From contig RPFO01002065.1 of the NCBI GenBank assembly GCA_009746045.1, positions 1 to 64,000 on the forward strand: a stretch of 64,000 nt of DNA. The letters run 5' to 3'. This stretch comes from Mesostigma viride. Lineage: Eukaryota > Streptophyta > Mesostigmatophyceae > Mesostigmatales > Mesostigmataceae. A program made the position numbers and the translations under genes. The notes under the pieces were generated by a model. It had not been told where the DNA came from and did not search any database. It saw only the letters and a list, made by a program, of their open reading frames with translations. Positions 13,673-64,000 of the stretch are shown here, one piece after another (position 1 is the stretch's first letter; each line of letters begins with the position of its first letter).

Positions 13673-14018
13673 GTTCTTGATTGCGTTGGAGATTTGTAAT
13701 GTGAAGTAAAGTGTGATTTAATCTCTCCAGAGATACTGCGTTGTTGTCGAGCAGATCCTGTAGATTTCTGATTGAAAAGTCTGGAAGTTCGCTGAAACAC
13801 ACACAGTTGAAAAATTCTTGTCGAATGCCACGCAGGAGCCAGCGGCAGTAGGCAGATTCAGGAAACACGCCCGGGAAGATGTCTTCAACTTGGGCAAAAA
13901 GCAGATTTGCTCTTGCGAGGTAGTCTGGGCAAGATTCTTCGGGAAATTGAAAAAGCTCAATTCCAGATCTCAGGTTGCGGTCGTTGGGAATTGGAAAATA
14001 TGGGTTCATAGGCATCAC
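13617..14018 (-). CDS. Upstream Gag-type ORF of the gag-only element
   Basis: 133-aa frame starting 17 bp from the 5' LTR. It contains a stretch resembling retrotransposon Gag helices (FQFPEESCPDYLARANLLF, YCRWLLRGIRQEFFN). It overlaps the start of the 294-aa Gag frame. Whether it is an independent leader protein or the N-terminal part of a frameshifted Gag cannot be decided from sequence alone. Confidence 0.5.
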   Translation of the reverse strand: MMPMNPYFPIPNDRNLRSGIELFQFPEESCPDYLARANLLFAQVEDIFPGVFPESAYCRWLLRGIRQEFFNCVCFSELPDFSIRNLQDLLDNNAVSLERLNHTLLHITNLQRNQEHVGRCASCGTRSQGEQRS

Positions 14019-14034: not shown

Positions 14035-14778
14035 TGTCAGAAACCGGGGCTCGGAGGAAAGATCTTTTGCCTGTTATGACCCAGATATTGCACAAGTGTA
14101 TGGAAAAGACTTCTTGTATTAAAATACGTTTACTGAGAGTGGAAAACACGGTGCGGCCAACACTGGGCGCAGTCTACCATAGCCAACACTGGGCCAGGGC
14201 AAATGACAATGCCAACACTGGGCAGGGTCACACGACCAACACTGGGTCGGGGCCACACACGGCTGGGCAAGCAAACGACTCTAGGCACACAAAGTAGTGG
14301 CGGCTAATGCATTATGCACCGTTGATTTACATCTGACGGCACTGCAGCTTAGCGTCTCTACAACCACGGAAAGAACACTAGATAATAACGACTTTGCAGC
14401 CTGTAATCTATTGTCCACATCATGGTACATTGTGTGTGTGGTCTGATAGGCTCAAAGTCCTATCGCCTCCAGGGCGGCACCACAAACTGCGGACCTGATC
14501 TGATCCGGAGAGAGCCGATGTAAATTACGGCACCTGTAACGGTGCTGACAGGTAACGCTTGCTGTATTCCGAGCAACATCATTCGGATTTTAGTACACTC
14601 AAACATTGTATATGATATTAAACTAGTCAACGACCTGTGGGTGCAATTAATAGGGATGCAAACCCAACAACAAGTCGTGTAAATAAACACCTAGCTGACG
14701 GCGTCAATTTTCCCCGCATATAATGCGTGATAACATAATGCGTGACAAAAGTAGAGAAACATCGCTAGATATTTGACA
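14035..14778 (-). repeat. 5' LTR (right copy) of gag-only element
   Basis: 744 bp, TGTCAG to TTTGACA, apparently identical to 12014-12757. In element orientation this is the 5' LTR and would carry the promoter. Four CCAACACTGGG motifs recur at 14157, 14183, 14212 and 14236. Confidence 0.9.
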
Positions 14779-15184: not shown

Positions 15185-18100
15185 ATGGCGCGATCGGGGC
15201 GGGGGGCCGTTTCCGACGGTTCGCGTCCCTTGTCCAATGACGACCGGGAGCCTGCACTTCGCGGTCTCTGGAGCGACAAGTACATCGAGAACAAGGGGTA
15301 CAAAATTGCCAATGACATCTTTCCTATCATGGCGGAACGCGTGAAAGCAAACAACCACAGGACGCCAGAGATGAGCGCGGAGGTTCTGTCTTGCGCAGCT
15401 TCAAGACTAAATGCCATGGTGGCGGAGAGCAACGGCATTAAGAAGAGGAAGAACTGTGACGACGGGCTTCCTGAAAGTTGGGCGGAATCTCTTCGGGATA
15501 CCATCAAGAAGGCTTTTGGCGACTTGGGAACATCTGAGAAGGATCGTGGGCTTAGGTGGGCCTTGTGTGGACTTGTTACGAAGGCAATGGAGGGCGTCCC
15601 GGACAGGATTGTGGAGCGCGCGTTCGGGATTGACAGGCGCTTTGTCGCAACTGTTCGGGGTCACAGGGATGGAATGGAAGAAGGGGAGGACGACCTTTTG
15701 ATGAGTGCGCCAGAGAGGAGGAGGAGGAAAGACGAGCTTCCGACGGAAGTCATTGCCCTGATACAAGCGTGCTGGAGGGATGATAACTTGACGCGGGCGT
15801 CTCCGAACATGAAGGATGTTCATTGTGAATGGACAAGAAAGGATTACAAACATACACTAGCGTTTTCGGAGGGTGCGCGCTACTATACTGTCTCCAAGTC
15901 GAAGATTTACGAAGTGTTCATTTCCCGCCATCCGGAGTTGAAGCCACCGCGGCGGATGGACAGTAGGGAGGGGGGGGGCTGGAGGGAGAGGAGGGCGTGA
16001 GGGGGGGAAATCAGGTGATTATGGAGACGGAGGAGGGGATGTCAATGCCTCGCACGAATCAGAAGAGCACAGTTCATGTGGGATACACTTCTTTTTGCAA
16101 GCATATGCCCGCATGCGTGAAGGGGCGGTGGAAAATGCGGAACTTGTGCGCATGCCAGCACCACACTACCATGCAGTCCATGGTTGGGGGGTTGGCCAAA
16201 TTTCGTGCAACTTTTCATGCCAGATGCGAGTGCGGACCTGAATGCCACGCGTGCGATCATGGTAGCCAGCTCGACGTGGGGTCGTCCGTGCCCACATGTT
16301 CCATTTTCAAAGCCACTCACACGACAGAGTGGGTGAACAAGTTTACTTGTGAGGTGGAGGGGATGAGGGAGGGGGGAGGTTCGAGGTCGTCTGTGGGGTC
16401 GTCGCGGCCGCAGGTTCAGCCTTTTCAGGGCGAACTTGAGGATCTGCCCATGCATGGGAGGGTGCTGGACGACGAGGAAGGGGTGCCCGATCATGACCTG
16501 GGCGAGGAGTTGGGGGTTTGCTCGATCCGGCGTAAGGCTTGTGTGTTGGGCACTTGCCTGGCTCCCAAGTGTGGAATTCGGAACTTCATGTTATGCGAAC
16601 GGGAGGAGGCTTCCAACCACCTGATTTCATGGACCAGATACGAGATGCAGGATGTGCCGCCGGGTGCGGTTCTTGGGCCAGAGGTAATTTTTAGTGGAGT
16701 GGTTGCGCCCCAAGGCGTTTCTTTTGCAATGTTTCCTGAAGTTCTTGGGCCAGAGGTAATTTTTAGTGGAGTGGTTGCGCCCCAAGGCGTTTCTTTTTCA
16801 ATTTTTCCTGAGGTCCTGTCTTTTTTCTTCCTACAGGTCATTGGTGGGTCGAAGTTGATGTCTTTTCTGTATGTGCACACTGCGCATATGCAGGACGACT
16901 GTGACGAGATCGCAAAGGCTGGTGGGCAGCGATTGACGCAAGTCGACGTCAAGTCCACACCAACGGAGCTAAAGGAGGCAATTGTGGACAAGTGGCCGGA
17001 CTTCATCCAGCATTGCTTCAACGCGTGGTGGCAAGCGGACGCCTCCAAGGAATGTCTCTCAAGGATGCGGGTGGGGGACCTTGTATGCCACACAGATTAC
17101 GCCGAGAACTACCAGTCTTACACCTATCACAATCTCCAAGCACAGTATTGGCATCCAGTCACATTCGTCCTTATGCCCTGGATCGTGCGCTACTTGGATC
17201 CAGCGTCGGGAAAGGTCGTGAGAAGGGAGTTTCACTTCATCGGACAGGGCGGAATGAAAAGGGACGGGCGGGCCCTCCGTTTTGCTATCCTCAAAATCCT
17301 GGCGACACTACGGTCAGAAGGGGTAGAGGTGAAGCGCTTCATTGGGTGGTCGGACAATTGCTCCATGCAGTTCAAGTCAAGGAATGTGATCGCGGAAGTG
17401 GCCCGGCTGCTGACGGAGGATCCGCACCTGGAGTCATTTGAGTGGAATTACTTTGGGGAGCAGCACGGAAAGGGGGAGGTGGATGGAGCTGGTGGGACTG
17501 TGAAGTGCATGTTGAGGAGGTGGCACATCAGGGAAGAGAACCAGGACAAACAGACGGCCGCCCAGTTGGTGGAGAATCTGGCGTCGGGGGCGGTGGGCGG
17601 GACCACAACGACCAGGCGTAACTTCTTCGAGTTCCCCGAGGTAATTAAGTGTACAGTCCTCGTTCAGGGAATAGTTACGCCGGCCGTCGTTTCTAGGGCG
17701 TTCTTGGAGTCCTGGCGATCAGGAGTGCTTAATAAAACACAACTAGCTCGATGGTCTCGTAACTTCAACTTTCCCTTGTGCAAATCTTGTCTTCGACGCG
17801 CAGGTGCTTCCTTACAGCCCAGGGCGCGGCGAAATCAAAGGAGTGAAGAAGGCGCACTGGTGGCGCATGGACAAGTCGAATGTGACGCGCTTAATGCTGC
17901 GCCAGTATTCCTGCTATTGTGGCGGTGCGTGCGCCGAGGAAAGGTGGTGGGATTGTCGAAAGGAGTGGACCGACATGGACGGCTGGAATGTGGGAGGTGC
18001 TCGGATGAAGCTCCACAAACTGGGGGAGCCAGTGCAAAGGAACCCAAACGGACAAGGGGGGCACGCAGGGACGCGACTGAACAGACTACAGGCAGAGAGG

Positions 18101-18535
18101 ACGATGATGGGAAGGAGACTGAAGCTGCGAGACATTTTTGCCGTCGAGTCCTACTCTGGTGATGAGTCCCACGATCCAGATCATCCATATTGGCTAGCGG
18201 AAGTCTTGCAGGAGCCTTATCAGGTGGCCGCTACTTTCGTGAGGCGAGTGGCCGACAGAAACGGCAAGGTCGATAGGGAGTTGTTCCGTAAGGGACAATG
18301 GGTGGTGGGGGTGCGCTACTGGGACAGATTTCCGGGTATGGCGACGATGTTCAAAATGGACGCCGATGCGCAAGCTGAACAGCCAAACTTGGTCAATTGC
18401 TACCTGTGCATGGACGCGGGGTTCGAACACACCATTGTTGTCAACCCAGCTAACAATCGCCAGGCCATCTTGACCATTCCGACAGACGTCGAGAAACGGC
18501 TCACGAACTTGGCCAAGAAGAGACCTGTTCAGTAG
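15185..18535 (+). CDS. DDE-transposase-like protein, spliced
   Basis: Proposed exons 15185-15962, 16073-16683, 16837-17640 and 17804-18535 (974 aa). The last intron is well supported: GAG|GTAATT to CGCAG|GTG, phase 0. The second (16684 or 16756 to 16836) is in frame and could be retained. The first is inferred to reconcile two frames that otherwise overlap at 15997-16000. The N-terminal part is helical (WSDKYIENKGYKIANDIFP); Cys/His clusters follow (CACQHHTTM, CGPECHACDHG). The catalytic-like core has HTDYAENYQ, then SDNCSMQFKSRN, then FGEQHGKGEVDGAGG, spaced like an RNase-H-fold DDE/D transposase. This HGKGxxDGxGG signature occurs in eukaryotic transposase-derived proteins, but I cannot name the superfamily. 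The C-terminus has HPYWLAEVLQEPYQV and KGQWVVGVRYWDR. No terminal inverted repeats were found, so it may be immobile or domesticated. The upstream frame stays open to 15050, possibly from an acceptor at 15121. Confidence 0.65.
16669..16812 (+). repeat. 72-bp tandem duplication across an exon end and splice donor
   Basis: Copy 1 is 16669-16740 and copy 2 is 16741-16812, differing at about 3 positions. Each contains the exon end TTCTTGGGCCAGAG, the donor GTAATTTTT and an 18-mer GTTGCGCCCCAAGGCGTT, so there are two equivalent donors (16684 and 16756) for one acceptor at 16836. Two of the differences in copy 2 are G-to-T changes that strengthen the pyrimidine tract before the acceptor. Confidence 0.85.
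17674..17691 (+). repeat. Intronic copy of the 18-bp palindromic module
   Basis: GTTACGCCGGCCGTCGTT inside the 163-bp intron 17641-17803, identical to the modules at 11944 and 14944 in the intergenic array. Confidence 0.85.
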
Positions 18536-21345: not shown

Positions 21346-21625
21346 GTTATCAAGGAGACAACCAGCGCAGGCCAGAAATCGGGAGAATCCGGACCATGGT
21401 AGCTCGAGCCTGCCGTTATCTTTTCCGCGTTTTCGAGTCGTTCAGGATGATGAAGATGAATGGTGATGGAAATGTGTATCCTTGTGCATTGAAATTATGG
21501 CTGGCTTACGTGTAGAGCGACTAGAGGACCTAGACGGTGGGGCCGAAAACAGCTTGCTCGATAAGGGTGTGTGTTTCAAGCCTAGTTCTGGCCGGGAGTG
21601 TCTAGTGGTGAGCAACATGTTTTGA
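21346..21625 (+). repeat. Dispersed repeat AGGAGACAACCAGCGCAGG
   Basis: About 280 bp, nearly identical to 38470-38745, diverged in inverse orientation at 34195-34405, and a short piece at 61410-61465. Found next to LINE tails each time, so probably part of a LINE 3' region or a SINE-like passenger. No coding content. Confidence 0.75.
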
Positions 21626-22549: not shown

Positions 22550-25500
22550 CTATGATCCCAGCTCCGCGCTCCCATTCTCTCGCCCCTGCCCACCGTCACC
22601 GTCACTACTGCCACGCGCCACCGCGTGCGGGCCCAGTGTCAGCGGAACATGCCGTTCCGCCTCCCCATCCTCCCTCCTTGCCCCCGCGCTTGCACCGCTC
22701 CCCCCACCGACAGCCCCATTGGCACCGCCCCCACTGGCCCCATCCGCCGTACTGCCACCCGCGCCGTTGCTACCGCCCCCACTGGTTGTATTGCTGGCGC
22801 CCACCGTGCGTGCTGACACGAGCTCGTCCAGAACCGATTGGTTGCGAGCGTCCTCGGCCGCCTCCCGCTCCTTGCGCGCACTACTATTGGCTGCGAGGCC
22901 CCACAGCCGCACGGTGTGGTCATCCGACGCGGACGCAAACTGGTAGGGGTTTTTCGGGTTCCAGCTGACCGCGTTGACGGTGCCCGAGTGACCGGGCAGC
23001 ACCTCGAGCAGCTCGCCATTGTTGCGGTGCCACAGGTACACCTGGCGAACGTGGCGCAAGTAGTCAAGCAAGGAGGCGGGCACCGTCCGAGCACGCGAGC
23101 ACACCAATAAGCATCCAGGGGTGCAGGTGGGCAAGCAGGCAAGCAAGCGAGTGGGCAGGAAGGGCAAGCGAGTGGCCAAGCAAGTAAACCAAGGCACGGA
23201 GATTATTTGGTGCATTTATGTGTCCACATGGGGAATGCCATCCCATGAAATTACCTGCGAGTCCTCACTCCCACTGACGATGAACGCCTGGTCGGTCCCC
23301 CCGAAGCAAGACCGGATCACATACCGCCCCTGCAAGGACAGCGAAAGACACGATGACGCAAAAGCGGCAGCATAACAGAGACAAGGCGCGCTCAGGCACA
23401 TGAAGGACATGGGGGAAATGCGACGCACGAGGGAAGTAAGCCACCGCCTCGTGGGGGGCACTACGGGAACAAGGGTGCACATGCAGGGAGTGTTCTCACA
23501 TATACCAGGGTGCACGCCAGGCACACACATATAGCCTTGCATTACGAAATCTTGTGCTAATTATCTAACTGCCATTACACCCTGTGCTGTGCTTGCCCGG
23601 CGCGGGCACCGGCCATGCCACCAGACAAACCCTACAACACATTAAACAAACTACGCAGTGCACAAGCAAGTCGACCAAGGAGTCTCCTGCCCAACGACGC
23701 AATGCGCGCCGTATATGTGCTACCAGCCCCTGCCCTGGTCCACCGGCTTCTCCTGCGCCGCTGAGCCCACCCATGGGCCCCACGCGCCTGCTTCGGCCTT
23801 TCTTTAAAGAAAGCGACTGTTTCTTCCCTGCTAAACCAATGGCTTCCACCCCACTGCTGCTGCCCCGCCCACCCACTGCCCTGCTGCACCCCACCCACAT
23901 GCGCCTATCGCACCGGCTTCTCCCCAGCAACCCACTCACTTGTAGCCCACCTGCTTCTGCCCCTCTCATCACTTGAGCCCACTCACCTGCTTCTGCCCCG
24001 TGTAGGTGAACGCAGGCTCCGACGGCAGCCGGCTCTCACACAGGTCCCACAGGTGGATCTCCTGGCTGGACAGGTTGACCAGGAGGTAGCGCGAGCACGA
24101 GGAGAGGCAGAGGGATGTGATCGACTCCACCTCGTTGATGCTCTCCTCCGTCTTGTCGTGGAAGCGGTACACCCGGATGCGCTTCTCGCTGGTAATAGAG
24201 ACCATGTGGCGGCCGTCCTCCGAGATGGCTAGGTCGTTGACGCGTGAGCCTGAAGGGGGGAAGGGGGGGGGGGGGCGGGAATAGTTAGTTGACTGGTAAG
24301 CATGCGCCCATTGAAGGGCGCCCATTTGGGGGGAGGGAAAGGGGGGAAGAAAATACAATATTCGTTAGTTAAATGGAAACCATGCACCCATGGAGAATGC
24401 ACCCATTGAGATGCATGAAGTCCAAAAACACATGATCATCTACTTCTTGCCGATTCCTGATCGACCGAGTCACAAGGCAACCACTTCAAACGTTGAATTC
24501 CCTGTTTTACTGTTTAAAGTCCTACCTTTCCTGCTCCAGATCCTCGCCCTATCCGCTTCGACTTAGAAGTGCGTTGCCTTCGCTAGCTATACCTTGCCAG
24601 TCTACCTAAGGACATATGCCTTACCCCATTTGCCCTACCTTTCCACTGCTCCAGCTCCTTGCCCTCGATGTCCCACAGGAACATCGACTTGTCAAACCCG
24701 CCCGACACGAAATGCTTGCCGTCCGGGAACCACGCGCACGCGGTCACACTATCCGTGTGCTTGGTGTACGTCTGCAAGCACACCCCCGTGGTCGTGTCCC
24801 ACAGCTTGACCAGCATGTCGTTGCCACAGGTGAGCAGCTTGGAGTCGTCCGGCGACCACGATATGAAGGACAGCGGTTTCTTGTGGCCCCGCAGGTGGTG
24901 CCGCACGCGGTTGCCGACCTCGCCGACAATTTCCCAGATGATCACCGTCGTGTCCTTGGACGCGCTGGCCAAGTAGCGCCCGTTGTGTGAGAACTGGAGG
25001 TGCCAGACCTCGTCCGTGTGGGCCTCTAGCACCTGGCAAGGGGGGCAAGGGGGGCAAGGGGGCAAGGGGGGCAAGGGGGCAAGGGGCAAGGGGGGGGAGG
25101 GGAGGGGGAGGGGGGGAAGGAGGGCGAAGGGGGGAAGGGGAGGAAAGGCTGGGGGAGGGGGGGGGGAGGGCGGAGGGGGCGGAGGGGGGCAACAGGGGCA
25201 AGGGGGGCAAGGGGGGGGCAAGGGGGGCAAGGGGGGGCAAGGGGGGCAAGGGGGGCAAGGGGGGGCAAGGGGGGGCAAGGGGGGGCAAGGGGGGGCAAGG
25301 GGGGCAAGGGGGAAAGGGGGAGGGAGGGGGGGAGGGGAGAATCAAAGGGGAGTCACGCGAGGCAGAAATTGCAGGCAGGAGGAAAAAGCAAGAAACAAAC
25401 TTTGTTCAAGGTGCCAATAAACACCCAAACGGTGATGACAACAACTGTTACGGTTTAAACCCCCCAAAGCTCAGTAAAGTGCAAACAAAAATCGGCATGC

Positions 25501-27853
25501 ATGCTCGTAGTGCGTTGCTGTACAGGTCTGGCAGCTGCTCTCATCTCAGGGTCGCATACAAACGCAACCAGGTCAATCGGAGACCCCTGAAAAGGCTACC
25601 GGTTCCATTCTGAGACCGGACATGCCCCTCTCCATCAAACCCCGCTGTTCATAGAATACACGCCAGCCGTCAACTTCCCCGTATTCAACTCAACCAGACC
25701 ACAAACGCTCCTGACAGCCCCCCGGTGTCCCCACTCACCCCACCACATGTTGTTCCACTCCCTCGCCCATGCCACAGGCCCACTCACACACAATACAGGC
25801 CCAGTGCTCCTCCCACCTGCATGGTTTCCCTCGTGACGGCTCACCTGCGTGGTTTGCGTCGGTATGACGTCCCGCCCGCACGAATGGTTGTGGAAGAGCG
25901 AGAAGGTGCGGTCGGGCGTGTTGTGGTATGTACATGCGTGCCTCTGCACCGCCAGCGCTTGCTCCAAGAGCGCCTCCAGCCGGCGCTCTGGGATGAGGAA
26001 CCAGGAGGGGAGCAGGTCCTGCAGGGACAAGAGCAGCTTGTACCTGCAAGGGGGGGGGGGGGAGAAAAACAAAAGAGACCGGGGCGGGGGCCGGGGGGAG
26101 AGGGGGAAAAGCACCAGGGGGGGGGGGGAGGAGGGGGGGGGGGACGGGACAGTTCGGCAGACAGACCAAGAAGTGAGCAATGGAGGAGAAAAGGCAGGGC
26201 TCAACCCACAAGGAATAGAAAAAGGGGGGTTGTAAATAGGGGCTGGGATAATACTACGGTGGCAACAAATTCACCCACCCACCCACCCACCCACATATAT
26301 ACATACGCACTCCACTCACGCATCCGTATAGTCTGCAGCAGGCAAGCTAGCAGCAGGGAAGCACTGCTGAGCATAAAGAAGCTGGCATCAGAATATAGAA
26401 ACCCATGCTCACACAACACCGAGTCATTGCATCCTTCAAACTCTCATGCCCCCCCAATCCACCGATGACCCAGACCCCATCGCAACAAAGCCATGTGCAT
26501 GAGTTCAACGGCTTCACAAGGCAGACCCAACGTTGTTGCAACACAGTTGTTAGCCACCACCCACCGTCACGTTGCTACACCCCACTGACCTACCTCTCAC
26601 CTCGAATCAAAGGCACGGCATTTTCAGACATGCTCACCTAGCAGCAAGGTTTCCTACCTTTCATCAACCTCCCAGCTAATTCAGAAAAACAGGTTGCCTA
26701 CCTGTACAGATTGGCTATCTATACAGATAGGCTATCTATACAGATTGCCTATCTCCGTTGCCTTGCCTACCTCAAATCAACCGCCCATTATACCACAGAG
26801 TGGTTACTCCATCTGCTTGGCATGTGTCGCCTAACTACCTGCCTCGTCTATCACCCCCAGTCCCCCGCGCCCCCTCCCTCCTCCCCTCCAGTCCCCCCCC
26901 CCCCCCCTGTCCCCTCCCTCCCCTCCAGTCCCCCACCCCACACACCATCCCCTCCCTCACCTCCAGTCCCCCCCCCACACACCATCCCCTCCCCTCCGAT
27001 CCCCCCCCACACACACCATCCCCTCCCTCACCTCGAGTCCCCCGCCGCGCCGCTCCACTCGGCGCGCGCGAGCAGGTCCTGCTTCCCGGAGCACATGATG
27101 AGCGAGGCCAGCTGGTGCAGCCGCGCCGTGTCCACCTTGAGGGGGGCCATCTCGCTGCGCAGGCACTTGAGCGCGCCTGGGGGAGGGAGGGCGGCCAAGC
27201 GGGAGAAGAGGAAGGTAGAGGGGAGAGGGGAGGGGGGGGGGAAGCGGGATTTCGTTCAACCCAAACTTTTTCTGATGAGTTAGAGGATCAACCAACGAAA
27301 GACCGACGAAGAAAGGGCGGGAAAAAAACAGCCTGCTCAACGCAGCAGACTGCAGCAAACTGCCTCGGTTATCTGCTGGAAAAGAGAGCCTCTCAAATGG
27401 GGATCGAACTAGGATGCATGACCAGACCTACCTCTCCCAAACACCAATGCACGTGGCACGACCCCCCCATCGCTCATGTAACATAGCGGGCCAGTTTGAA
27501 ACCGGGCCGTACTTCCCAGTTTCCCCCCAACTCATAAGTGCGGGTAGCTAGGCACTGATGAATACGCCTGCCCGCCGCTGATGACTCCCACAGGTACAAT
27601 GCTTGAAAGCACCTGTACATCTTGGCGAGCTCCCTGATGAGGCACTGTTTAACGACTTTCTGTTTTAACGATTTTAACTCCGCATGAACCCCAGCCCCCA
27701 GCCCCCACCCCCCACCTCCACCCCCGACCCATGACATAGCTGGCCACTCTGCGCCCTCAAAAGCATAAGACTGGTCACCTTTCCCCCCCCCCTCTCCAAA
27801 AAAAAGGTTGCCAGTCAAGAAACGATACCACCCACCCACCCACCCACCCCGCG

Positions 27854-27936
<83 letters not shown>

Positions 27937-28384
27937 ACTACCCACCAGTGACGTCGCCTGTTTCAAACATCTCCAGAAACTTCTGCTGCAACACCAGGAA
28001 GCGTGCGCGCCGCAGCTTGTCCTTGTCCCTCAGCTGCAGCCGGGCCAGCAGCGACGTGACCAGCTCCCAATCCCCGTCCAGCACGCCATTCCGAAACAGC
28101 GTGCTTGCCTGCGACTGGAGGGGAATCCCGCTTTCCTTTTCGAGCAGTGCCGCCGATGACGAATACCCGAGCGAATAGAGCGACTGCTGGATCAGCCGCA
28201 CCAGCTCGGGCCGCGATATCTGGCCCTTGTTGCCCACGAAATCCGAGCGGGTGTCCGCGGCCGCATATTGAGGGTACCGGTGCGCCAGCGGCGCGTGAGC
28301 TGGCTGGCCCTTGCCGTCCCTGGCCTCGTCACCCGCACCGTTGGGCAGCGCGTGCGTGCTGGCCGCAGCAGTGGAGCCCCGATC
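22550..28384 (-). CDS. WDR26: WDR26/GID7 homologue: LisH-CTLH-WD40 protein
   Basis: Subunit type of the GID/CTLH E3 ubiquitin ligase. Coding exons, minus strand: 28384-27946, 27176-27032, 26043-25845, 25032-24639, 24249-23987, 23329-23255, 23041-22550 (2,007 bp, 668 aa). All joins keep frame and use GT-AG. LisH lies at about residues 45-75 ([19 protein letters not shown]) and is followed by CTLH ([17 protein letters not shown]; exon 2 [19 protein letters not shown]). Exon 3 has [22 protein letters not shown] repeats follow: [81 protein letters not shown], then [13 protein letters not shown] and [13 protein letters not shown]. Motif order and spacing match animal and plant WDR26. The C-terminal ~120 residues are a Gly/Ser/Ala-rich tail. 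The first exon is unresolved: exon 28384 opens at an acceptor (CCCCGCAG). A candidate ATG exon at 28891-28847 ends in phase 0 at GAG|GTAGTG. Confidence 0.92.
25036..25345. repeat. GGGGCAAG-type G-rich repeat inside a WDR26 intron
   Basis: Irregular tandem GGGGGGCAAG units begin within 5 bp of the intron's acceptor. On the gene's coding strand the tract is C-rich and directly precedes exon 4, so it doubles as the pyrimidine tract. Confidence 0.9.
27836..27930. repeat. CCCA then AC-dinucleotide microsatellite in WDR26 intron
   Basis: A short CCCA block (27831-27848) and CGCGCG, then about 34 AC units to 27930, ending 16 bp from the donor of the first recognised WDR26 coding exon. Confidence 0.95.
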
Positions 28385-28411
28385 CTGCGGGGTGGCGACA
28401 GGTAGCGCGAT

Positions 28412-28523
28412 GTGGGTGGGTGGGTGGGTGGGTGGGTGGGTGGGTGGGTGGGTGGGTGGGTGGGTGGGTGGGTGGGTGGGTGGGTGGGTGGGTGGGTGGG
28501 TGGGTGGGTGGGTGGGTGGGTGG
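28412..28523. repeat. GGGT tetranucleotide array in WDR26 intron
   Basis: About 28 perfect GGGT copies just upstream (in gene sense) of the acceptor of the exon starting at 28384. On the coding strand it reads ACCC. It separates the recognised exons from the unresolved first exon. Confidence 0.95.
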
Positions 28524-28891
28524 CAACATGGGGAGAGGGCAAAGTTGAGCATGGGGCAGAGATCAGAAAAAAACAAAAGGCAGGGCAAAGATCAGAAAAA
28601 CAATGGAGGTAAGACAAAGGTCGAGGCAGGAAAAGAGGAGTGCTTTGAAGAGAGCAGACAGGAACACAGAGCGGAGGCAAGAAAGGGTAGGCATGAAGGA
28701 AAGAGAGGAGACAGGGGTGGGGGAGCTGGAGGAGCGAAGATGCCATTTGCAGGACACGGGTTGCAGGCACCCTGGATACCAAATGGGACGTGGGAAACGG
28801 GGCCAGATGATGGGAACCTCTTGCCTGGTGACATAATCACCACTACCTCGCCACGTATGCTACCGGTACCACTACCGCAACCCCCACCCAA

Positions 28892-34194: not shown

Positions 34195-34405
34195 ATGCCG
34201 GCCATAATGATCAAGCAACATGTTTCCAGACCCACCGTCTAGTGTTGTTACTAGGTCATCTAGCCTCTCTTACCGTTTGCAAGCCATAATTTCAATGAAC
34301 AAGGCTACACATTTCCATCTCCATTCATATCCATCTGGTTGTCTCCTTGATATCCATCATCCTGAACCACTCGAAAATGCGGATACGGATAATGGCAGGC
34401 TCGAG
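34195..34405 (-). repeat. Dispersed AGGAGACAACCAG repeat, diverged, inverse
   Basis: Inverse-orientation, diverged copy of 21346-21625 (shares GGTTCAGGATGATGGATATC and GGAAATGTGTAGCC on the minus strand). Abuts the LINE tail at 34406. Confidence 0.65.
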
Positions 34406-34738
34406 CTACGATTAAAAAAAATTAAATTAAATTATAACATGCCTCCGTTGGGAGATCATGTAGCACATATTCCTTGATGGTGGGGTGGGATGGAAGGAGC
34501 CGCGTAATCGAACTAACCTACTCTAATCTAGCTAGTCTAGAAAAATCCTAACTACCCTACTCATCAAAACGCCTCCTCCGCTTGGGGGGAGGTGGTTTGC
34601 CCACAGGGTCGGGCGTGTGAGCCTTGACAATCCGCTTCCACCGCGTCTTGTTCTGCATGGCAGTCCAAAGAAGGGAGAGAGAGTGGATGCGGTATTCAAA
34701 CTGGGCTGGGACCAGTAGGTCCTCCAGCAACATCGAGC
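34406..34738 (-). pseudogene. LINE ORF2 C-terminal fragment and 3' end
   Basis: Minus strand: FEYRIHSLSLLWTAMQNKTR-like tail, PPPPKRRRRFDE, stop, 3' UTR, TCTCCCAACGGAGG hairpin and repeated TTAAA/TTTAA tail at 34411-34436. A 5'-truncated insertion like those at 19693 and 20281. Confidence 0.7.
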
Positions 34739-37700
34739 TACGATGGTCCGGAAATTCTCCAGATTTCTGGCATGCGCTAGTTATGTCACTGATATTAGGT
34801 GGTCTTCGCGCCTTTCCTCTCAGACAACTACCCTAGTCCTTCACATCACCTAAAATCGGTCCGTCCGGTTACATGAGATCCTGGGAATTTTGGCGCGAAC
34901 GCGTCGCGAAGACGGGACCAGAAAAATTCCACCTCGCATGGCTGTCGACCCTATGTCCGCCGGAATATCAGTCGAAAGTCAATTATGCATGTTAAGTCGC
35001 TGCGATGGATGCAAACGACGCGTAAACTCTCCTGCTTTGCGATGATGCATGGTAGATATTATTCGCGTATGTTCATGCGTCAAAATAATTCGCAAACTGA
35101 GACGCTGTTTTTTTGTGTCGGCCAGATCTGGAATTGGCAGCGAAAATGCATGTTTATTAATTGTGGGGGAAACTTTTTTGTTGGAAGCTCACAATTCCCA
35201 AAAGGTCGAATCCGAATGGGCTTCAAGTCTACTTTCACGAGCGCTAATCAGTTTTTCGAGAAACGAATCACATTTTCCAGGCTGTCGCATTACCTGCCGG
35301 CAGGTCAGATTTTGCTGTTTTCAGTGACGTTTACGACCGTCCTTGCTTGATGCGTTTCTTCCTTTTTTTCGGCTCACGGCATGGCGGGGCTTGTTCCAAC
35401 ATGCCTGCGGAGGTGTAAGCTGTGTAGCCATGATTTAAAAGTCACATATTGCTCTCGCGCCACCATCTGTTACTGCTCGACACTGCAAGAAACACTGGTT
35501 GCCTGCTCGCAACGCAAGCACAAGCACGACAACGGTGCCCTAATCCACATCCAGGCGTGTATTTCCGAGAAAAACTTCAGGCTTTTGTCGCGGCATACCT
35601 TCGGTGTTCCAAGCCGTTCACCGCTCCCCGAAATAGTCTTATGACTCGCTTTTATAGCATTGTGGGTTCGCGTCCGCCATCTCCGCCGGGTGCTGACACG
35701 AGATGTTCGCGCTGAACCTGGACTGCAAGGTCGCCCGCTACCGGTTAGCTGTACGTATTTAGCAAGCTCTGGATGATATTGTCATGGTTTTGGTGCAGGA
35801 AGGTGCTGTGGGGGGGTCTATCTCACCTCTTTACCTAGCTTTCCTCCTCCTAGCTTGACAGCTAAGTTTGCATCAGGAAGTCATGCTTGTTGACAAAGCT
35901 CGATGGATGTCAACCTTGGGATGTGCTGTGAAGGTGTTAGCATGCTTGCTTGAAGAATTGAATGCGTATGTGTGCAAGCATCGACATTTTTTTTAAGGGC
36001 AGTAGGTAGCAGCCACGTTCTTATTCAATTGTGTCAGGACGTCTATGTTGCCTTTACTGCACTCTGTCCTAGAGGAGTTTGATGCCACTGTAGATGACTA
36101 TGACCAGTGGGGTGGTGAGGATGGGCCGGTGTGCTGGGGTGAGCCTGAAGGGCATCTTGGATCACGTGACCCTTAGGCAATCATGCCAGGCTGTGCAGTT
36201 TATGGCTTGTGATGTATGGATGCAGCGGGTGAGCAGGTTGTCGTTGCCGTGGCCTGTGTTAGTGAACTCTATCATCTTTTAACTTACCCAAAGCCCCCCT
36301 AGACCTAAACTGCCTCGCCTTCTTTGAGGGGTTGCCTTCTTTGAGGAGTGCCATGTCTTGAAAGGTTTGTTGGGGCCCTGGCTTTCAGAGTAGGTTGAGG
36401 TGGAGAGGGGTGGCACACTGCTAGGTGATGGCAGGGCCATCATGTGATGCACCTTACGTTGGGATGGGGACCATGCATTTGTTCTTGTTGCTAGCATGGG
36501 CAGGGTGAGCGGCTGGGAGTAAGGTGTAAGTGCTACTTGTGCCACTGTCCGAAAGGGGAGCTCCATGCGGTGGGCAAACAGCGTTGCAAGCGTACACTTA
36601 ACACAAATGTGGTCTGATGCACTCAGCTGACCTGCCATTTCTCTTGATGCACCAAACCACACTAAAGGCTTGATATAGCCGGTAGGAAATGCATGTGCAT
36701 GCAGTGTCAAAAGCAGAGAGGGACACTGTTAGCACATGAGTGTGATTGTAAACCGATGAGTGTGAGCCTCCCCGTGCCATCCCATGCATTTTACACCTAT
36801 TTTTGGCAATCCCCCATCACGCCGCAGTTATGCACCGCCTATGCAAGGGGGATGAATAGACAGTTCTAGGTGTGTTGAGGGATGAGATAAGGTAAACATG
36901 AGGAGCCATGCAGGCTAAAAAGGAAGGGCGATGTCAACAGTGTGTTTGCCCAGATTTTGATGTCAGGAGGGGCTGAAAGATCAGTGGCCACGATAAACCT
37001 AGGTGGATTACATGAGAGATGACACGACCATGAGAGGGTGGTAGATGAGTTCAACTGAGAAGAGCTAGCATTACATGCACAGATTCTTAATGACCTATGG
37101 ACTGTCCAAGGGTTGGAGTTCAGTGCACGTTCCAAAGACTATGATGAGCATGACGATGATGGCAAGGGGGCGGGGGGGCGCAATTAGGACAGGCACTGAT
37201 GCAGAATTATGTTGTACAGCAGCTAGGTGCTGAGCTCAATTGAATAGCAGCCCAAGCCACTGCTGTCCTTGATTGCGCTTTGTATTTCCATGTAGCAGAG
37301 AGGCACCTGGCAGATATATATTTGGATTAGCTGCTATAAGACACGCACAGCAGGGGTGCCCAGCAGAGTGGGCCAAGTACTGCAAAGGAGATTGTGTGTG
37401 CTGCCGAGCGGGGCCCGTTTAGAAAAGAGACTGGTCAGCCGACAGGCACGACTGGTCAGCCAAGCTCCCCTTCTTGAGGCTTGTAGGCACTATGGTGCTT
37501 GTTCCGAATGCCAGCATCTACTGTGATTGATGGTGATTTTGTCCCTTGATGATCGCTTTTTTAGTCTGTGTTGGCTAATGTATCCAGCCCCAGTGGCATG
37601 TATATGAATCCCATGACAGCCATGACGATAATTGAGTGAAGAATGCAAAGTTTTCCAAGACAATGGCGCAGAATATGGAGTATTTTGGCAAAAATCGCTC

Positions 37701-38425
37701 TATTTCTGCTTGCATCCGTCACTTTTAGTGGGCCGGCAGTGGTCCTAATATGTCCAACTTGTGTTCTAGTGTAAATTCAAGTATTGTGCTATTAATGTGA
37801 CGAATTCTGGCATGATTGTGCCACATATGTGCTGGCAGGGGCTTCATAAGTTTGAAAATAATGCACTAAAACGGTGTTTTGGCTCATGTATGCCAGAATT
37901 ATAGCACATAGTTTGGTCCTACATTGCATACTTAAGGGCGGTTTTTGTCTTTGGATGTAAATTAATTAGCATGACCATTTCCAGCTGAACTGGACTACAT
38001 TTACTACTTGTGTGTGGCTGCTATGCCTCCTTATGCCTGGAGAACATCGTTTTTTGCACTTTTCCACGTCACGGTTTGATGCTAAAAATAGGTCAGTTGG
38101 CCCCCCAATTTATGTGATGTGAACAGGGTCCTAGGGGGACCTTAAGTCCAGAAAGGCACCCCGATCTGACTATATGTGTGGGAGATATGACCCCATGTAA
38201 CAAAAGAGGCCATTTTTAGGTGATGTGTTCGATCCTGCCACGGCGTTTGATATCGCGATGCATCCACGATCGAATAGTTGTCTCAATAATATGCTTTGAC
38301 CTGTAAGGCCGCCTTACCATATGTGAGTCAATGGCGATGGCGTTGGCGTGGATGCGCTTGTCGATGTCGAGGAGCTCCTCGATGTCGAGGAGCTAGCTGG
38401 GCCTTGATGTCGGCAGTCACCCGAT
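34739..38425. other. Intergenic; no gene recognised
   Basis: No frame here shows a recognisable domain. The longest (36279-36710 minus, 143 aa; 34985-35350 plus, 121 aa) look non-coding. Sequence is unique and moderately AT-rich. Confidence 0.45.
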
Positions 38426-38427
38426 GG

Positions 38428-38452
38428 ATGGATGGATGGATGGATGAGGACA
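38428..38452. repeat. Short GGAT microsatellite
   Basis: About six GATG units followed by GAGGACACACAATCC; a minor version of the TGGA array at 46133, also flanked by LINE-associated sequence. Confidence 0.8.
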
Positions 38453-38469
38453 CACAATCCTATACCGGT

Positions 38470-38745
38470 CTAATCTCAAGGAGACAACCAGCGCAGGCCA
38501 GAAATCGGGAGAATCCGGACCATGGTAGCTCGAGCCTGCCGTTATCTTGTCCGCGTGTTCGAGTCGTTCAGGATGATGAAGATGAATGGTGATGGAAATG
38601 TGTATCCTTGTGCATTGAAATTATGGCTGGCTTACGTGTAGAGCGACGTACTAGATGACCTAGACGGTGGGGCCGGAAACAGCATGCTTGATCAGGGCGT
38701 GTGTTTCGAGCCTAACTGGCCGGGAGTGTCTAGTGGTGAGCACCA
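38470..38745 (+). repeat. Dispersed repeat AGGAGACAACCAGCGCAGG
   Basis: Near-identical to 21346-21625, with a 6-bp GTACTA difference near 38648. No coding content. Confidence 0.8.
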
Positions 38746-39044
38746 TTGCTGCGATCGCTCTCCCACCATTTACGAGGAAATACCCGCAAATGGAAAACCA
38801 CTGAAAAGGTAGCTAGTCAGTCATCGTTAGCCATGCCATGATTCCAAACGTCCAAGAACTGCACACGGTGCAAAGGCAAAAAGCCGGAGGACAGCACTTT
38901 CAAATGTGCGGCGGGAACCAAAAGCCCGCGGATGCCAGAAAACATTGTGTTGCTGCAGCGACGCGACGATGTGGACAACGAATCCAGTGCCAAGCTCGGA
39001 ACGGCCGCAAAGGAGATCTGGCATCACAGGGTTCAGATGTGCGG

Positions 39045-41250
39045 AGATACTATGCGATCCAGCCGGTCCACGACCTGTTTGTAGAGCTTGTGCCAAGGGG
39101 CAGCACCGAACAGATGTGGGTGACGTTGGAAAAAACATCGGACTTGACGGAGCATAATGTCTCGGTCATAGTCTTTGACCAATAAACGCTGCAAGAGTTC
39201 AACAAGAGTCGTGATGAAATCAACACGATAAGAACAAACAAAGACGGGAAAAACGATGTAACTGAGAAAGAACAACACCATATTTTGCTGTGTGGGAAAG
39301 GAGACTGTGAATATCGGGGTAACGAATAAAAGGAATTTGCTGGTATTTAGGATCCTTGCGCTTATCATAGACAGCCGTACGCCAGCCCTTCTTGTTATGG
39401 TGGGTAATGTTAAGATCGAGGTAATTGCAATGAGTATCCTCCGACGTGAGCTTTAATGTGAGGGACGCTTGCGGGTAGATGCCAGGCAGACCAGCGGTGA
39501 TATACAAATGGGTTGCGAAATCAGGGTTGTCGAAAGCGATGACATCATCAATGTATCGACATGTATGGATAAAACGCCTGATGAGAACATCATCGTTTGA
39601 GGCAATGAGATTCTCCATGAATGCAAGCTCATAAGTGTATAGATAGAGGTTTGCAAGGAGCCCGGCACAGTTAGTGCCCATAGGGATGCCGATAGCTTGT
39701 TGGTATATATTGCCCGCAAAACAAATGAAGGTGTTATCAACAAGATAAGAGATCCAATGAACAAGGTCAGCCTTCGTGATAATATAATTATAACCATCCC
39801 GCACGATAGCACCTGCCGCGATCCCTGAGAGCCACGTTGCCGTGGGCTTGGTCGATCTGAGAAACACGCACGTGCAGGTGGTTGCGCCCGTGAGGCCTAC
39901 GTGCATATACAGACGAGTAAGGAGGCTATATCTAAACGAGCTTTCAAATCGTGCAAATCTAGTGTGGTATATAGAGTGGTGAAATCATAGGTGGCTATGG
40001 GCGTAGGTATACGTTTCTCTGCTGCTGTCTTAGAACAGCTAAGGGCGGCAAGGCGTAGGCGTACTTGGGCTGAGTCTATGACGATCCAACTACCAGCGCA
40101 TTCATACCCGGCATGAACGACAGCACCTCCACCCATAATGCATTGGCTTCGGGGAGAAGAGCATTCAAAGCATGGCAGATGAGTTTCGAGAGAGGCATCA
40201 GTGGGGCTGAATGCGACGCAGCAATGGTGCGCACAGCAACAGGAGTTTTGTGCAGCTTAAGAGTGAGATACAGCTATGGGAACGTAGTGGTGGTGGCGCG
40301 TCGCTGCAAGCCGCTTAAGGAATGCCCGAGCAACAATGTTTTGGCTGTCGGTGCAGAAAAGCCCGATGAGCAGCAGTGATACTGGCGGTGGACTGTGCAC
40401 GCTGAACATAGGTAGGGCTGGACGCCAACTCGTGTTGCAAAGTAGCAAGGTAGTGCTTCTTGCATATAAAAGCAAAGTTGTTGGCACTCTTGTCAACACA
40501 CGTGATGATAAAGTCCTGCTTGAAGTGGTCAAGAAGTGCTTTATCTGTGGTGTTGAGCCAGGTGGTGCGGTGGACCTGCTGGAGACGGTAATCAAGCCTG
40601 GTGAGACGCGTGCATTGCATTCGTGAATGACGGCGCGAAACCACGGTTCCATGGCAAGGGGAGCAAGCTGTAGGTCCGTGCACATGGCATTGCAGAATTT
40701 GCGCAGTGATGTTGAGAGCATGCAGTGCATGCATTCACCTCTTTGGCACACGTGCGCTGGACCCACGGCCGAAACTTGGTGCCTTTGGCAAAAAGGTCTA
40801 CAAGCGTGTGGCTCGGCAGGATGCTGAGGTCAGCGGTCATGACGTGCTGTGAGGTGGGATCAAGGTACTTGAAATACCGTTGTTGTTGGCAGCCGGGCAG
40901 GGCCCTGCCAAGATGGTGGCCAGCTCGGTGGGCGTTGTATCGCGGCTGACCTTCCCGTTGCTGAAAACCATTTGTCCCAAGGTGGGAGAGTAATGCCAGG
41001 CGGCCATGGGAGTGCCGAAAGTGTTGCGCACCACGAGCGGCATCGCAGCCTGCACTTGTGGCAAATGCAGAATGTGTGGCAAACACAGTGTTACGCCGCG
41101 GGTATCTACCACTACCTCTACCTCTACCTGGCCTGATGCTACCTAAACTAGTCAAGCCACCTCTAGTTAATCCTCTAGCGAAAGACGAACGAGACGATCC
41201 AGATCTCAATGCATTAACGTAAGTGTTGCTATTGAATACGCCATAAGCCA
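39045..41250 (-). pseudogene. Penelope-type reverse transcriptase, frameshifted
   Basis: The RT copies element RNA to DNA at a nicked target. Blocks in order on the minus strand: GPCPAANNN and KYLDPTSQHVMTADLSILPS with LVDLFAKGTKFRPWV (about 40.9-40.7 kb); FIITCVDKSANNFAFICKK (about 40.5); LTLKLHKTPVAVRTIAA and PLMPLSKLICHALNALL (about 40.25-40.15); PIATYDFTTLYTTLDLHD (about 40.0; catalytic Asp); QQAIGIPMGTNCAGLLANLY (about 39.7); CRYIDDVIAFDNPDF (about 39.55; the YIDD catalytic pair); CNYLDLNITHHNKKG (about 39.4); and a thumb-like LVELLQRLLVKDYDRDIML (about 39.15). IGIPMGTN and the other blocks are typical of Penelope RTs. The blocks fall in at least three frames, and an in-frame TAG interrupts the segment near 40.07 kb. 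Confidence 0.85.
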
Positions 41251-41816
41251 TTTATACAACCCGTTTATTCCAGGAATAGAGGAAGGAAACACAACTACAC
41301 TGCCGTGACCCAAGCCTAAATGTGTTAATTCATTTAACACACGCCGAGTGCACACACGAGGGGTAGAACGTGCATAAATGGTCACCAACGGTCCAACACG
41401 CTCGGGCCGACATGGCCCTCGCCTACAGAAGCACGCTGGTCCACTACATCTACAGATGCACGCTCAGTGGTCCACTACATTCTACCAAAGGATCAGGACC
41501 ACTAGTAAAGTACGCGGCGCGGCGCCCAACGGCACCCAATGTACCACAGTACTGTTACGAGGACAATAATGTCCCGGTAGGAGCTTACACGTAAACCTAG
41601 GGACAACCGAGGCAAAAGACCTAATTTACGTCCGTAACTACAACGAATTGTTACGCGACGTAACACACAGCTCATCCATCGCAGCATGAATTAATGAAAG
41701 GTGAGATCAGTAAACGGCGCGGACGCAGTGCATCTGCATGCCCATTGACACGGTGCCGAATGATACATGAGAGAAGGCCTCGCAGACTAGTGGCATGGGA
41801 GCGGGGGACTTGCAGA

Positions 41817-42460
41817 TCAGCTGGGGAGCACGACCCGACGGCAATGTGTAAGCTGGTAAGCTTCTTCAAGCTGCAGGCTTCGAGATAGGATGCATGAAAG
41901 TTGCCGCGTTGCATATATAAGCCGAGACATGTGACGTAAGCAGCGGAGACTGGTGGAGTAAAGGGAAGGATCGGTGGACACATGTGTGGAAGGTGGAGGG
42001 GCTGGGGTGACGCTGGGGGGATAGGGGCGATATGGGTGGAGATTGTGCTTCAGAGGCCAGGCACGGATGAACATAAGAGGGCGGGGACGGGGGGGAGGCG
42101 GGCGGCGGCGAGACCGAGCTTTGAAGCTCTTGCCTTCAATGCAAAAACCGTGCGGCAGAAATGCATGTAACATTCGTTTCCAAAACGTTTCCCGATGCCC
42201 TGCGGCTTTGCGAAAAGCGGCGCCGGTAAAGGTGCCGGGGACATGTTCCAAGGGTACGACTCGCCAATCCCACCACCCGTATTGGGCCATGGCGCCATGT
42301 AGGGGGGTGTCGTCGTTGGCGGCAGGGCGGCCAATATGAAGGCGGCGTGCCGCTCGGACATGTTCCTGAAAACGCGTCCAGGCATCCCGTTGCGTCTGGC
42401 CAACGTAGATACGCTGAGGGTACCTGCGGTTGTAAATGGCATAAATGACGCGACGGGTGC
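41817..42460 (-). pseudogene. GIY-YIG endonuclease domain of the Penelope-like element
   Basis: The GIY-YIG nuclease nicks target DNA to start reverse transcription. One frame open on the minus strand from about 42460 to 41817 contains RRVIYAIYNRRYPQRIYVGQ (GIY and YIG strands), then AWTRFQEHVRAA (with the expected catalytic Arg region), DDTPLHGAMAQYGWWDWRVV, and GHRETFWKRMLHAF (the Glu-containing helix). It lacks an obvious start codon in this frame; upstream sequence (QAWRKRCRINTRHNHHCKDD) is in another frame. The domain itself looks intact, unlike the RT. Confidence 0.8.
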
Positions 42461-42720
42461 TTTCGGGGTGTGGGCGATCGTGGAGTTGGTAAGCGACAAA
42501 TGCGTGCGCTGTAAGCGCCAGAGGCGACGTAGAGTATGGTCATCCTTGCAGTGATGGTTATGGCGCGTGTTGATGCGACAACGCTTCCGCCATGCCTGTG
42601 AGGAGATACGATAGGGGAACTGCCGAGAAATAGCAGTGTACTTCCGGTAATCAATGCCACTGGATTGCCGTATTCTGTGGAGGGTAAGAGCATGCCAGAA
42701 AGTCATAAGGTGTTTCATGA

Positions 42721-43645
42721 TGATTCAGATGCACTGAGAGCTAAGACATCAAACAGAACCAGAGCGGAGCATATTGAGGTAAGTCAAATAGTCAATATTC
42801 ACGGCGTAACACCCGTTACGCGATAGCGGTGGTCCATGATGCATCTCCCCGGGGCAGGATGTGGCTAACAACCCAGCTGAATGGACTCGGAACATGTGGA
42901 TTCCCAGTGGGGGGGCCTTCCAATTGTCATACTTGACACCTCTTTCCTGTAACGAAAAGATTTCCCTTCTTCATGTTCCAGATGAGTCACCGTGCTCCTG
43001 CCTTTGTGTTTTTTTGGCGTTTGTAAAGAGATATGGGAGGGTAAACAAAAGCAAAGGCTGATATTGCCGTGTGGGGGGCCCGATCCTTGGTTAGTCTCTC
43101 AACAAGTGCCCATGCACAGAAAAACACGAGAGTAGCACACACGGTCTAATCTATCTACAACATCAAGCCAACTCTATTATTCTAAGCTCTCTACGCTACT
43201 AGGGGTCCTGTCCAGCGTGCTTGCCACGTTTGCAAACACGCGGGCGCTTCCCCACTAACATGTATATATTCATCGAGAATGATAGATTACGGAGGTGAGA
43301 TGGGCATGCAACATAATAAGGAAAAACCCGAAAAGGAGAAGAACCCTGAAGATTAATAGGAATCTGACACGGACATCCAAGGATCACGCCAGCTGCACAA
43401 TTAAGGTACATGCAACTAACTACATCACAAAACTACGACACGCAGCAACATCGCTGCCGGCCCACCATGCAGGCCTGGGAGGGATCTAGACCGTATGGGT
43501 CGCGACAAAGTCGGCCCGGGTGCGGCGGCCGGAATAGCACATCAGCCACGAGTGAGGGCGAGGGACAGGCGCTGCCGCCAATACGAGGACCACGTGCAGG
43601 CAGACCACGGGGCGGTCTGACCCTCGAGGTCGAGGCGGTATAATT
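42721..43645. other. Intergenic; no gene recognised
   Basis: Open frames at 42861-43061 and 43199-43411 have no recognisable domain. From about 43.48 kb composition becomes GC-rich, approaching the LINE fragment. Confidence 0.45.
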
Positions 43646-43649
43646 CACG

Positions 43650-44000
43650 GCGCTGTCAGCACTCGTGGAAAAGCTCCGCTGTCTTAACGAACTCGATCCT
43701 CAAGGACAAAGGGGATGACCCGGTGGGGCCCCACGTTGCCGTAGGAGGCAAACTTGTCGCGCTCAGCCACAGCGGCAGCGGCGCCGGCATCCACAGCCGC
43801 CCGGAGGATGTGGCGACCGTAGAGCGGCCGAGCCACGGAGACATCGATGAGCAGGTGGCAACCCTGCCCGTCGTATAGTCAAGCACGGTAATGTCGGGGC
43901 GGTGGGTGGGTGATTAGAGGGCGGCCCCATCCGCGTCCTCGCACTTGATGGTGGAGTGGGGAAAGACCGACCGAACCATGGCACACACCACCCGGAGGAG
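43650..44000 (-). pseudogene. Non-LTR retrotransposon C-terminal domain fragment
   Basis: In a composite minus-strand reading: RPDITVLDYTTG, CHLLIDVSVARPLYGRH, DAGAAAAVAERDKFASYGNV, HRVIPFVLEDRVR. This is the pattern of the conserved C-terminal domain found after RT in many algal LINEs. Frames change at least once. Belongs to a different LINE family from the PPPPKRRRRFDE copies. Confidence 0.6.
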
Positions 44001-45679: not shown

Positions 45680-46132
45680 GGGAATACAGCAGTAGTAGTG
45701 TAGAATAGAAAGACCGTGGCCATGTACATGTACGCCTCCTAGAGGCACTATCCCAGCTAAGCCACGCGCTTTATTTAATCATGTACATGTGTGCCTATGA
45801 TGAGCCACACTCCAGATGATGCCTAGCTTTATTTAGTTATGTTGTGCCCATGCAGGGAGTAACTCTCTGCTGAGACGCCATGCCCTAGCTTCTTTGTATA
45901 GCTATGCTGATCTTCCCCCCCATGACAGGCTCCCCCTTTGCTGGGCATAGCTTGAAGATCATGGGGATGCAAGTGCCCTGGTGCACCTAGAGCAAGGGTC
46001 CTTTACATCCCCACCCTTGCAGGAAGTAGCTTAGGATGTATGATAGGCCATATGCCCCCTCTCAAGGGCTATGTGCTACATATACTCCCAACGGAGTTAT
46101 GTTACAATTCAATTCAATTCAATTCAACCCCG
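45680..46132 (+). repeat. LINE 3' UTR, full length, with tail
   Basis: Follows ORF1 directly; ORF2 is absent, so this is an internally deleted copy. Ends GTGCTACATATACTCC, hairpin ACTCCCAACGGAGT (46085-46098), TATGTTAC, then an AATTC pentanucleotide tail (46107-46128) running straight into the TGGA array. Confidence 0.75.
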
Positions 46133-46859
46133 ATGGATGGATGGATGGATGGATGGATGGATGGATGGATGGATGGATGGATGGATGGATGGATGGATGG
46201 ATGGATGGATGGATGGATGGATGGATGGATGGATGGATGGATGGATGGATGGATGGATGGATGGATGGATGGATGGATGGATGGATGGATGGATGGATGG
46301 ATGGATGGATGGATGGATGGATGGATGGATGGATGGATGGATGGATGGATGGATGGATGGATGGATGGATGGATGGATGGATGGATGGATGGATGGATGG
46401 ATGGATGGATGGATGGATGGATGGATGGATGGATGGATGGATGGATGGATGGATGGATGGATGGATGGATGGATGGATGGATGGATGGATGGATGGATGG
46501 ATGGATGGATGGATGGATGGATGGATGGATGGATGGATGGATGGATGGATGGATGGATGGATGGATGGATGGATGGATGGATGGATGGATGGATGGATGG
46601 ATGGATGGATGGATGGATGGATGGATGGATGGATGGATGGATGGATGGATGGATGGATGGATGGATGGATGGATGGATGGATGGATGGATGGATGGATGG
46701 ATGGATGGATGGATGGATGGATGGATGGATGGATGGATGGATGGATGGATGGATGGATGGATGGATGGATGGATGGATGGATGGATGGATGGATGGATGG
46801 ATGGATGGATGGATGGATGGATGGATGGATGGATGGATGGATGGATGGATGGATGGATG
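46133..46859. repeat. Perfect TGGA array, about 181 copies
   Basis: About 725 bp of GATG/TGGA without a visible interruption. It begins 5 bp after the LINE tail and ends at CACAGTCCTACC. Three long open frames (WMDG or HPSI peptide repeats) are artefacts. Confidence 0.98.
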
Positions 46860-60859: not shown

Positions 60860-61870
60860 TGGACGACCACTTGACCCTGGCGCAGCAACAAGAGCGACGG
60901 GAGCTATATGGCCGATCGACCTACTAGTTACCTCCATGCAGCTCCGGCAGACACTGAGCAGGGAAGAAGCCGGTATATGTATTATAATAATATAATTACT
61001 TACATGCAGCAGAGTGAAATCACTCAAACCAAAGCAAACGCCCAGCTATAAACCTCTATACAGAGCCATGTCAAATCTCTATACTACGATAAGACCAATG
61101 GAAACTCCTAACGGGAGGAACCTAATAGCCCTGCTGCACCGCAAAATCAGCCCGCGTACGGCGGAGCATGATGTCAGCCATGGCCCGAGTCAGCGCCACC
61201 GACAAGCGCTGACGCCAATATGACGTCCGGTATATGTATACTAGCTAGGGAGGGGGGCGGTCATCTACGTCCACCACAAGCCCTGGCAGGCGACCCCTAC
61301 CGCCCCAGCTAGCAACCCCAGCCAGCATCCCCAGCCAAGAGGAATACAGAATTAGTGTAGAATAGAATTAAGCTGACGTGGCCCAACCCAAGCCGGCCCA
61401 TGTGCATGTATCAAGGAGACCCGAGACAACCAGCGCACTGCCAGAAATCGGGAGAATCCGGACCATGTATGCCTATGATGGGATCTGACACGGCAGATGA
61501 TGTATTAATGAATAGCCAGCATGCCGTCAGTTGGCCATGCTTTGCCCGGCATGCATGCAGAGAGTCACTCGATCTCTGCTGAGACGCCATAACATAGCCA
61601 TATAATAATCATCTTCCAGACTTCCACGGTCCCATGCCAGGCCTCTTTAGGTATGATACATATCATGGTACGTGGTTATCATTGTCAATGAATACATATC
61701 ATGGTGGTGCAGCTGCACCATGTACGCGTACTGGATTATGGTGCATGGCAGTTTACATCCCCCATGCACCTCAGTGCAGGTTGTAGCTCAGAACGAGCCA
61801 TATATGCCCCTTCTCAGGGTCCGATATGTGTTACATATGCTCCCCACGGAGATATGTTCTTAATTAATTA
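60860..61870 (+). repeat. LINE ORF1 scraps and 3' UTR with TTAA tail
   Basis: ORF1 end pieces at 60870-60980 (TTGACCCTGGCGCAGCAACA) and 61235-61300 (CCACAAGCCCTGGCAGGCGA), a piece of the AGGAGACAACCAG dispersed repeat at 61410-61465, then 3' UTR and a degraded CTCCCCACGGAG hairpin (61838) with tail TTAATTAATTAATTGA (61860-61875). Confidence 0.65.

Positions 61871-62591: not shown

Positions 62592-64000
<1,409 letters not shown>

Follow-up and report, generated by a model that had tools for sequence, protein, structure and literature searches.

Does a 64,000-nt stretch of the Mesostigma viride genome (contig RPFO01002065.1 of assembly GCA_009746045.1, positions 1 to 64,000; herein referred to as the window) hold a Penelope-like element (PLE) in which the GIY-YIG endonuclease (EN) precedes the reverse transcriptase (RT)? 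The canonical PLE order, as given in passages of one paper, is nucleic-acid-binding, RT and C-terminal GIY-YIG (PMC11167929), and the locus considered here presents its two recognizable domains the other way round. Our preferred reading, to which we assign a probability of about 0.7, is that the locus is a dead PLE copy with an N-terminal EN, of the Chlamys/Naiad type and more likely Chlamys. The features are collected in table 1.

Table 1. Features of the locus and its downstream flank, in window coordinates
Feature	Positions	Strand	Basis or remark
Open segment before the EN, possible N-terminus	42497..42724	-	Open frame (codon start coordinate mod 3 = 1), assigned by openness and not by homology; codon signal, 14/500 shuffles as high
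ORF of 240 codons holding the GIY-YIG domain	41817..42539	-	TIGR01453; phage EN likeness; codon signal in the right frame, 8/500 shuffles as high
Stretch devoid of coding signal between EN and RT linker; either an intron, an insertion or what is left of a decayed linker	41050..42050	-	Five sub-stretches, 70 to 482 of 500 shuffles as high
Two-frame linker preceding the RT; CxC-like stretch where the frame shifts (~40899-40889); HVMTADLSIL...FAKGTKFRPW	40763..41049	-	Translations
RT, split over several frames (DFIITCVDKS, KLHKTP, DFTTLYT, GIPMGTNCA, YIDD, CNYLDLNIT)	39250..40762	-	Translations; group II RT model; likeness to contig L019
C-terminal part of the RT, in another frame, with a stop at its end	39033..39221	-	Translation; expected frame supported by a weak codon signal, 57/500 shuffles as high
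Repeat downstream of the RT, ~271 bp	38476..38746	-	93.8% copy at 21350-21618 (minus orientation)
(CCAT/ATGG)n microsatellite, 27 nt, adjoining the repeat on the side far from the RT	38420..38446		Repeat search

Two domains on the minus strand

A GIY-YIG EN (approximately 42449-42130) lies upstream of a Penelope-type RT (approximately 40596-39036), both on the minus strand; the two domains, their order and their shared strand are direct observations. The EN carries IYAIYN (42446-42429) and IYVGQT (42410-42393), and the RT carries YDFTTLYT (39989-39966), IGIPMGTN (39693-39670) and RYIDD (from 39558). Motif search thus recovered the RT motifs named in the original prediction together with the two GIY-YIG motifs, all on the minus strand, and the proposed order of EN then RT on a single strand was borne out by matches to the NCBIfam model TIGR01453 and to a phage EN upstream of the RT motifs. 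Searched as a degenerate DNA pattern, IGIPMGTNCA has a single occurrence in the window, and none of 100 shuffles contains it; we take both GIPMGTNCA and KLHKTP to be PLE-type motifs.

Profile searches, which had been suggested as a check on the two domains, did return GIY-YIG and RT models, those of NCBIfam and Pfam scoring below their cut-offs. The EN matched TIGR01453 (group I intron endonuclease) at E=0.001 over residues 15-121 (19.2 bits, against a cut-off of 56.05) and Pfam GIY-YIG at E=0.085 (below cut-off), with no match in PHROG and none among PDB sequences at E<=1. A single RT ORF (39984-39220) matched the NCBIfam group II intron RT model at E=3.2e-5 (far below cut-off), DRT1 in the PDB at E=0.0025, a PHROG RT at E=0.014 and, weakly, Pfam RVT_1 at E=0.065 (below cut-off); the X-joined linker and RT matched 0 Pfam families and, in the PDB, DRT1 at E=0.012 plus one unrelated entry. 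Single-sequence structure models were poor for both the EN (mean pLDDT 47.5) and the RT (mean pLDDT 35.7), and none of the eight Foldseek matches to the EN model was significant, the top one being a T4 EndoII mutant (E=6.9) to which we give no weight.

Among 50,697 phage records, tblastn with the EN matched four at E<=1; the top two (E=6e-3) are annotated as GIY-YIG homing endonucleases. Alignment to a phage enzyme of this kind extends over the greater part of the domain, with identity at 34 of 99 aligned positions. When the phage enzyme was used as the query, a single one of the 908 ORFs in the window (six-frame, at least 40 aa, whole window) was matched, and this was the EN ORF (E=7.3e-5). 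Read by eye, the GYN that follows the conserved Glu of the phage enzyme corresponds to GFC in the EN, a Cys for the late Asn, which we take to be the catalytic Asn of GIY-YIG enzymes. Phage and group I intron GIY-YIG homing endonucleases are thus like the EN in their catalytic domain, but they are free-standing genes without an RT.

The main rival explanation, which we judge unlikely although it has to be reckoned with, is that the locus consists of two neighbors: an EN-less or 5'-truncated PLE RT and, lying upstream in the same orientation by chance, a GIY-YIG gene or homing-endonuclease element unrelated to it. That the EN's detectable relatives are phage homing endonucleases and a group I intron endonuclease model fits such a juxtaposition, as does the difference in GC content (0.60 in the EN vs. 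0.46 in the RT); however, the sole GIY-YIG match among the 908 ORFs shares the strand of the RT and directly precedes it, an arrangement that a known permuted clade would predict. The frequency of G at third codon positions also argues against two neighbors, being similarly low in the EN (0.20) and the RT pieces (0.19). Since the host WD40 exons stand at 0.51 by this measure, the EN has little resemblance to a host gene. A copia-like ORF of the window is likewise low (0.25), which counts against resting the preferred reading on this measure. The WD40 exons occur at 22553-28591 on the minus strand alongside a LisH motif of the WDR26 type (Pfam LisH_WDR26, E=3.1e-20), and this region probably represents an intron-containing WDR26-like gene of the host.

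A codon-position model trained on two RT pieces and scored against 500 shuffles chose the expected frame in all six held-out pieces, the EN included. Scores as high were reached by 57, 47, 6, 26, 8 and 14 of the 500 shuffles for pieces P9, P2, P1, P6, EN and pre-EN, respectively. The test is not specific, because an unrelated, non-coding comparison repeat (38740-38480) was equaled by 17 of 500 shuffles, and we regard it as weak.

A broken copy and the stretch between its domains

The linker and RT can be read as nine pieces from 41046 to 39036, amounting to 657 codons with no internal stops and with eight frame changes; YDFTTLYT and IGIPMGTN themselves lie in different frames. The piece borders were set by eye from motif and openness, and the absence of stops is therefore partly a matter of choice. 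The broken state of the copy is observed directly, and the earlier term intact-looking is too strong: it does not suit the whole element, given the frame changes across linker and RT, and the EN has a Cys replacing the phage Asn. Elsewhere in the window, long ORFs run open for hundreds of codons, and general sequencing error is therefore disfavored, whereas local error may still contribute. The CxC-like stretch of the linker consists of C-P, a frame change, a C and then HVMTADLSIL; it may correspond to the CxC linker of PLEs with an N-terminal EN.

Because approximately 1 kb without coding signal separates the two domains (42050-41050; five sub-stretches equaled by 392, 244, 70, 482 and 381 of 500 shuffles), we infer, rather than read from the DNA, that the EN and RT were once one protein. 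The same stretch counts in favor of two unrelated neighbors. In one version of our preferred explanation, the EN and RT would be exons of one PLE gene, joined across a spliceosomal intron of approximately 0.54 kb (41588-41050); we consider this version distinctly unlikely, and its probability is not additive to that of the preferred reading. In the scanned ranges one 5' site alone (41588) fits GT[AG][AC]G, CAG/G at 41049 is the nearest to the linker among 14 candidate 3' sites, the two sites are both in phase 0 (by eye), and passages of one paper describe a Penelope copy whose ORF is interrupted by an intron (PMC3846280). However, agreement in phase has a one-in-three chance of arising at random, there is another CAG/G candidate at 41127, and the sequence upstream of the 5' site (42050-41590) is also without coding signal. 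Overall, the splice-site evidence for this putative intron, which is drawn from sequence, is weak. A PLE variant whose EN and RT are separate units and not one continuous ORF strikes us as quite improbable, whether the units are two genes belonging to a single element or exons joined via a spliceosomal intron of approximately 0.5 kb.

Placement among Penelope-like elements

Relatives of the RT were sought in genome contigs, where a first scan gave 0 stretches and a scan with a loosened motif gave 25, two of which (L019 and L020) match the RT at E<=1e-3. The identity to the RT is 52% over 50 aa for L019 (E=3.15e-16) and 58% over 31 aa for L020. Both contigs come from MAGs, named Thiodubiliella and Thioglobus, L019 belonging to a Bathymodiolus symbiont, and we infer that their RT pieces are host (mussel) contamination in symbiont MAGs. 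The L019 RT, which also has DFSTLYT and GIPMGTNCA and whose frames are likewise broken (decayed), may derive from a mussel PLE. A tblastn search with the EN found nothing on L019 or L020, scans of viral contigs gave no confirmed relative and the RT had no match to phages at the protein level. Within the window no further PLE piece was convincing; the tblastx matches were few and short, the strongest at E=1.36e-4.

The defining paper for the Chlamys and Naiad clades is said to be Craig et al. 2021. In PLEs with an N-terminal EN, a single ORF encodes the EN, a short linker bearing CxC and the RT, whose fingers carry an insertion located between motifs A and B'; such elements show an insertion bias to microsatellites, and no hammerhead ribozyme is known from them. 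The EN of Chlamys elements is without the CCHH motif; Naiad elements are animal elements and their EN retains it. The locus resembles Chlamys elements in having GIY-YIG upstream of a PLE-type RT, an EN without the Cys pair, a CxC-like linker and no hammerhead found, but differs in being broken in many frames, in the noncoding-looking stretch of approximately 1 kb between its domains and in having no pseudo-LTR pair that we could find. With Naiad, the locus shares an EN before the RT, and its RT motifs resemble those of L019; Naiad ENs, however, presumably keep CCHH, whereas no Cys lies between IYAIYN and IYVGQT here (of the CCHH motif, the Cys pair alone was examined). The EN is therefore not of the canonical Cys-bearing type. 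The original assignment to a permuted PLE of the Chlamys/Naiad type is thus partly supported: the domain order is real, and the missing Cys, the CxC-like linker and the hammerhead result agree with it, whereas its treatment of EN and RT as one element stays conditional. From RT motif A to B' the spacing is 296 nt (~99 aa) here and 262 nt (~87 aa) on L019.

Searches of the surrounding sequence gave 0 Rfam matches up to E=5 in 37500-43700, and so no hammerhead, although a decayed ribozyme could escape detection. No pseudo-LTR pair was found in 37800-43600, which holds no long direct repeat and four repeat families of 16-34 nt, although not every PLE copy keeps pseudo-LTRs, which derive from tandem insertion. 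Pseudo-LTRs, an intron in one copy and 5' truncation are described for Penelope in passages of two papers (PMC3846280, PMC8969392).

Canonical Penelope/Poseidon elements also combine an RT with a GIY-YIG EN, but theirs is a C-terminal EN accompanied by a hammerhead motif, according to passages of PMC11167929, whereas here the EN lies upstream and no hammerhead was found. That the locus is a canonical PLE whose own EN, once following the RT, was lost or rearranged is conceivable insofar as the copy is broken and rearrangement thus possible, yet we regard it as highly improbable: the phage GIY-YIG query matched no ORF downstream of the RT, where the canonical EN would lie (its single match among 908 ORFs being upstream), Cys is absent between the GIY and YIG motifs of the EN and no hammerhead was matched.

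Flanks, surroundings and significance

Downstream of the RT, the repeat of 271 bp may be the 3' region of the PLE, an independent repeat or a short non-autonomous element; weaker partial copies of it occur at 34208-34412 (71%), 34733-34798 and 61423-61467. Elsewhere, the window holds a large tandem array (4778-8649, unit ~70/141 bp), long four-base microsatellites ((GATG)n at 46132-46859 and (CCAC)n at 62627-63998) and a plus-strand open frame of 731 codons (15967-18159) with no Pfam match at E<=0.01. Two 744-bp direct repeats (12014-12757 and 14035-14778), 100% alike, flank a gag-like ORF (12791-13717), perhaps as parts of a young LTR retrotransposon. No tRNA and no Rfam family at the gathering threshold were found in the window.

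The element had also been put forward as the best taxonomic hint in the window. However, passages of a 2025 paper describe Chlamys PLEs, three families of them, from the brown alga Ectocarpus and state that PLEs were previously unreported from TSAR (PMC12477816). As Chlamys PLEs thus occur in a brown alga too, the clade is not confined to one lineage and the hint is weak.

In intact relatives, the GIY-YIG domain would nick target DNA and the RT would copy the element RNA from the nick, which would amount to the target-primed reverse transcription suggested for PLEs in passages of PMC11167929. The element is itself most likely an ordinary one, because the arrangement of EN before RT has already been reported for such elements. 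If our reading of a dead PLE copy with an N-terminal EN holds, the locus would be one more decayed PLE copy with permuted domains, which alone changes little, and would offer a starting point for recovering sister copies from its genome and for asking whether an intron joins the EN and RT.
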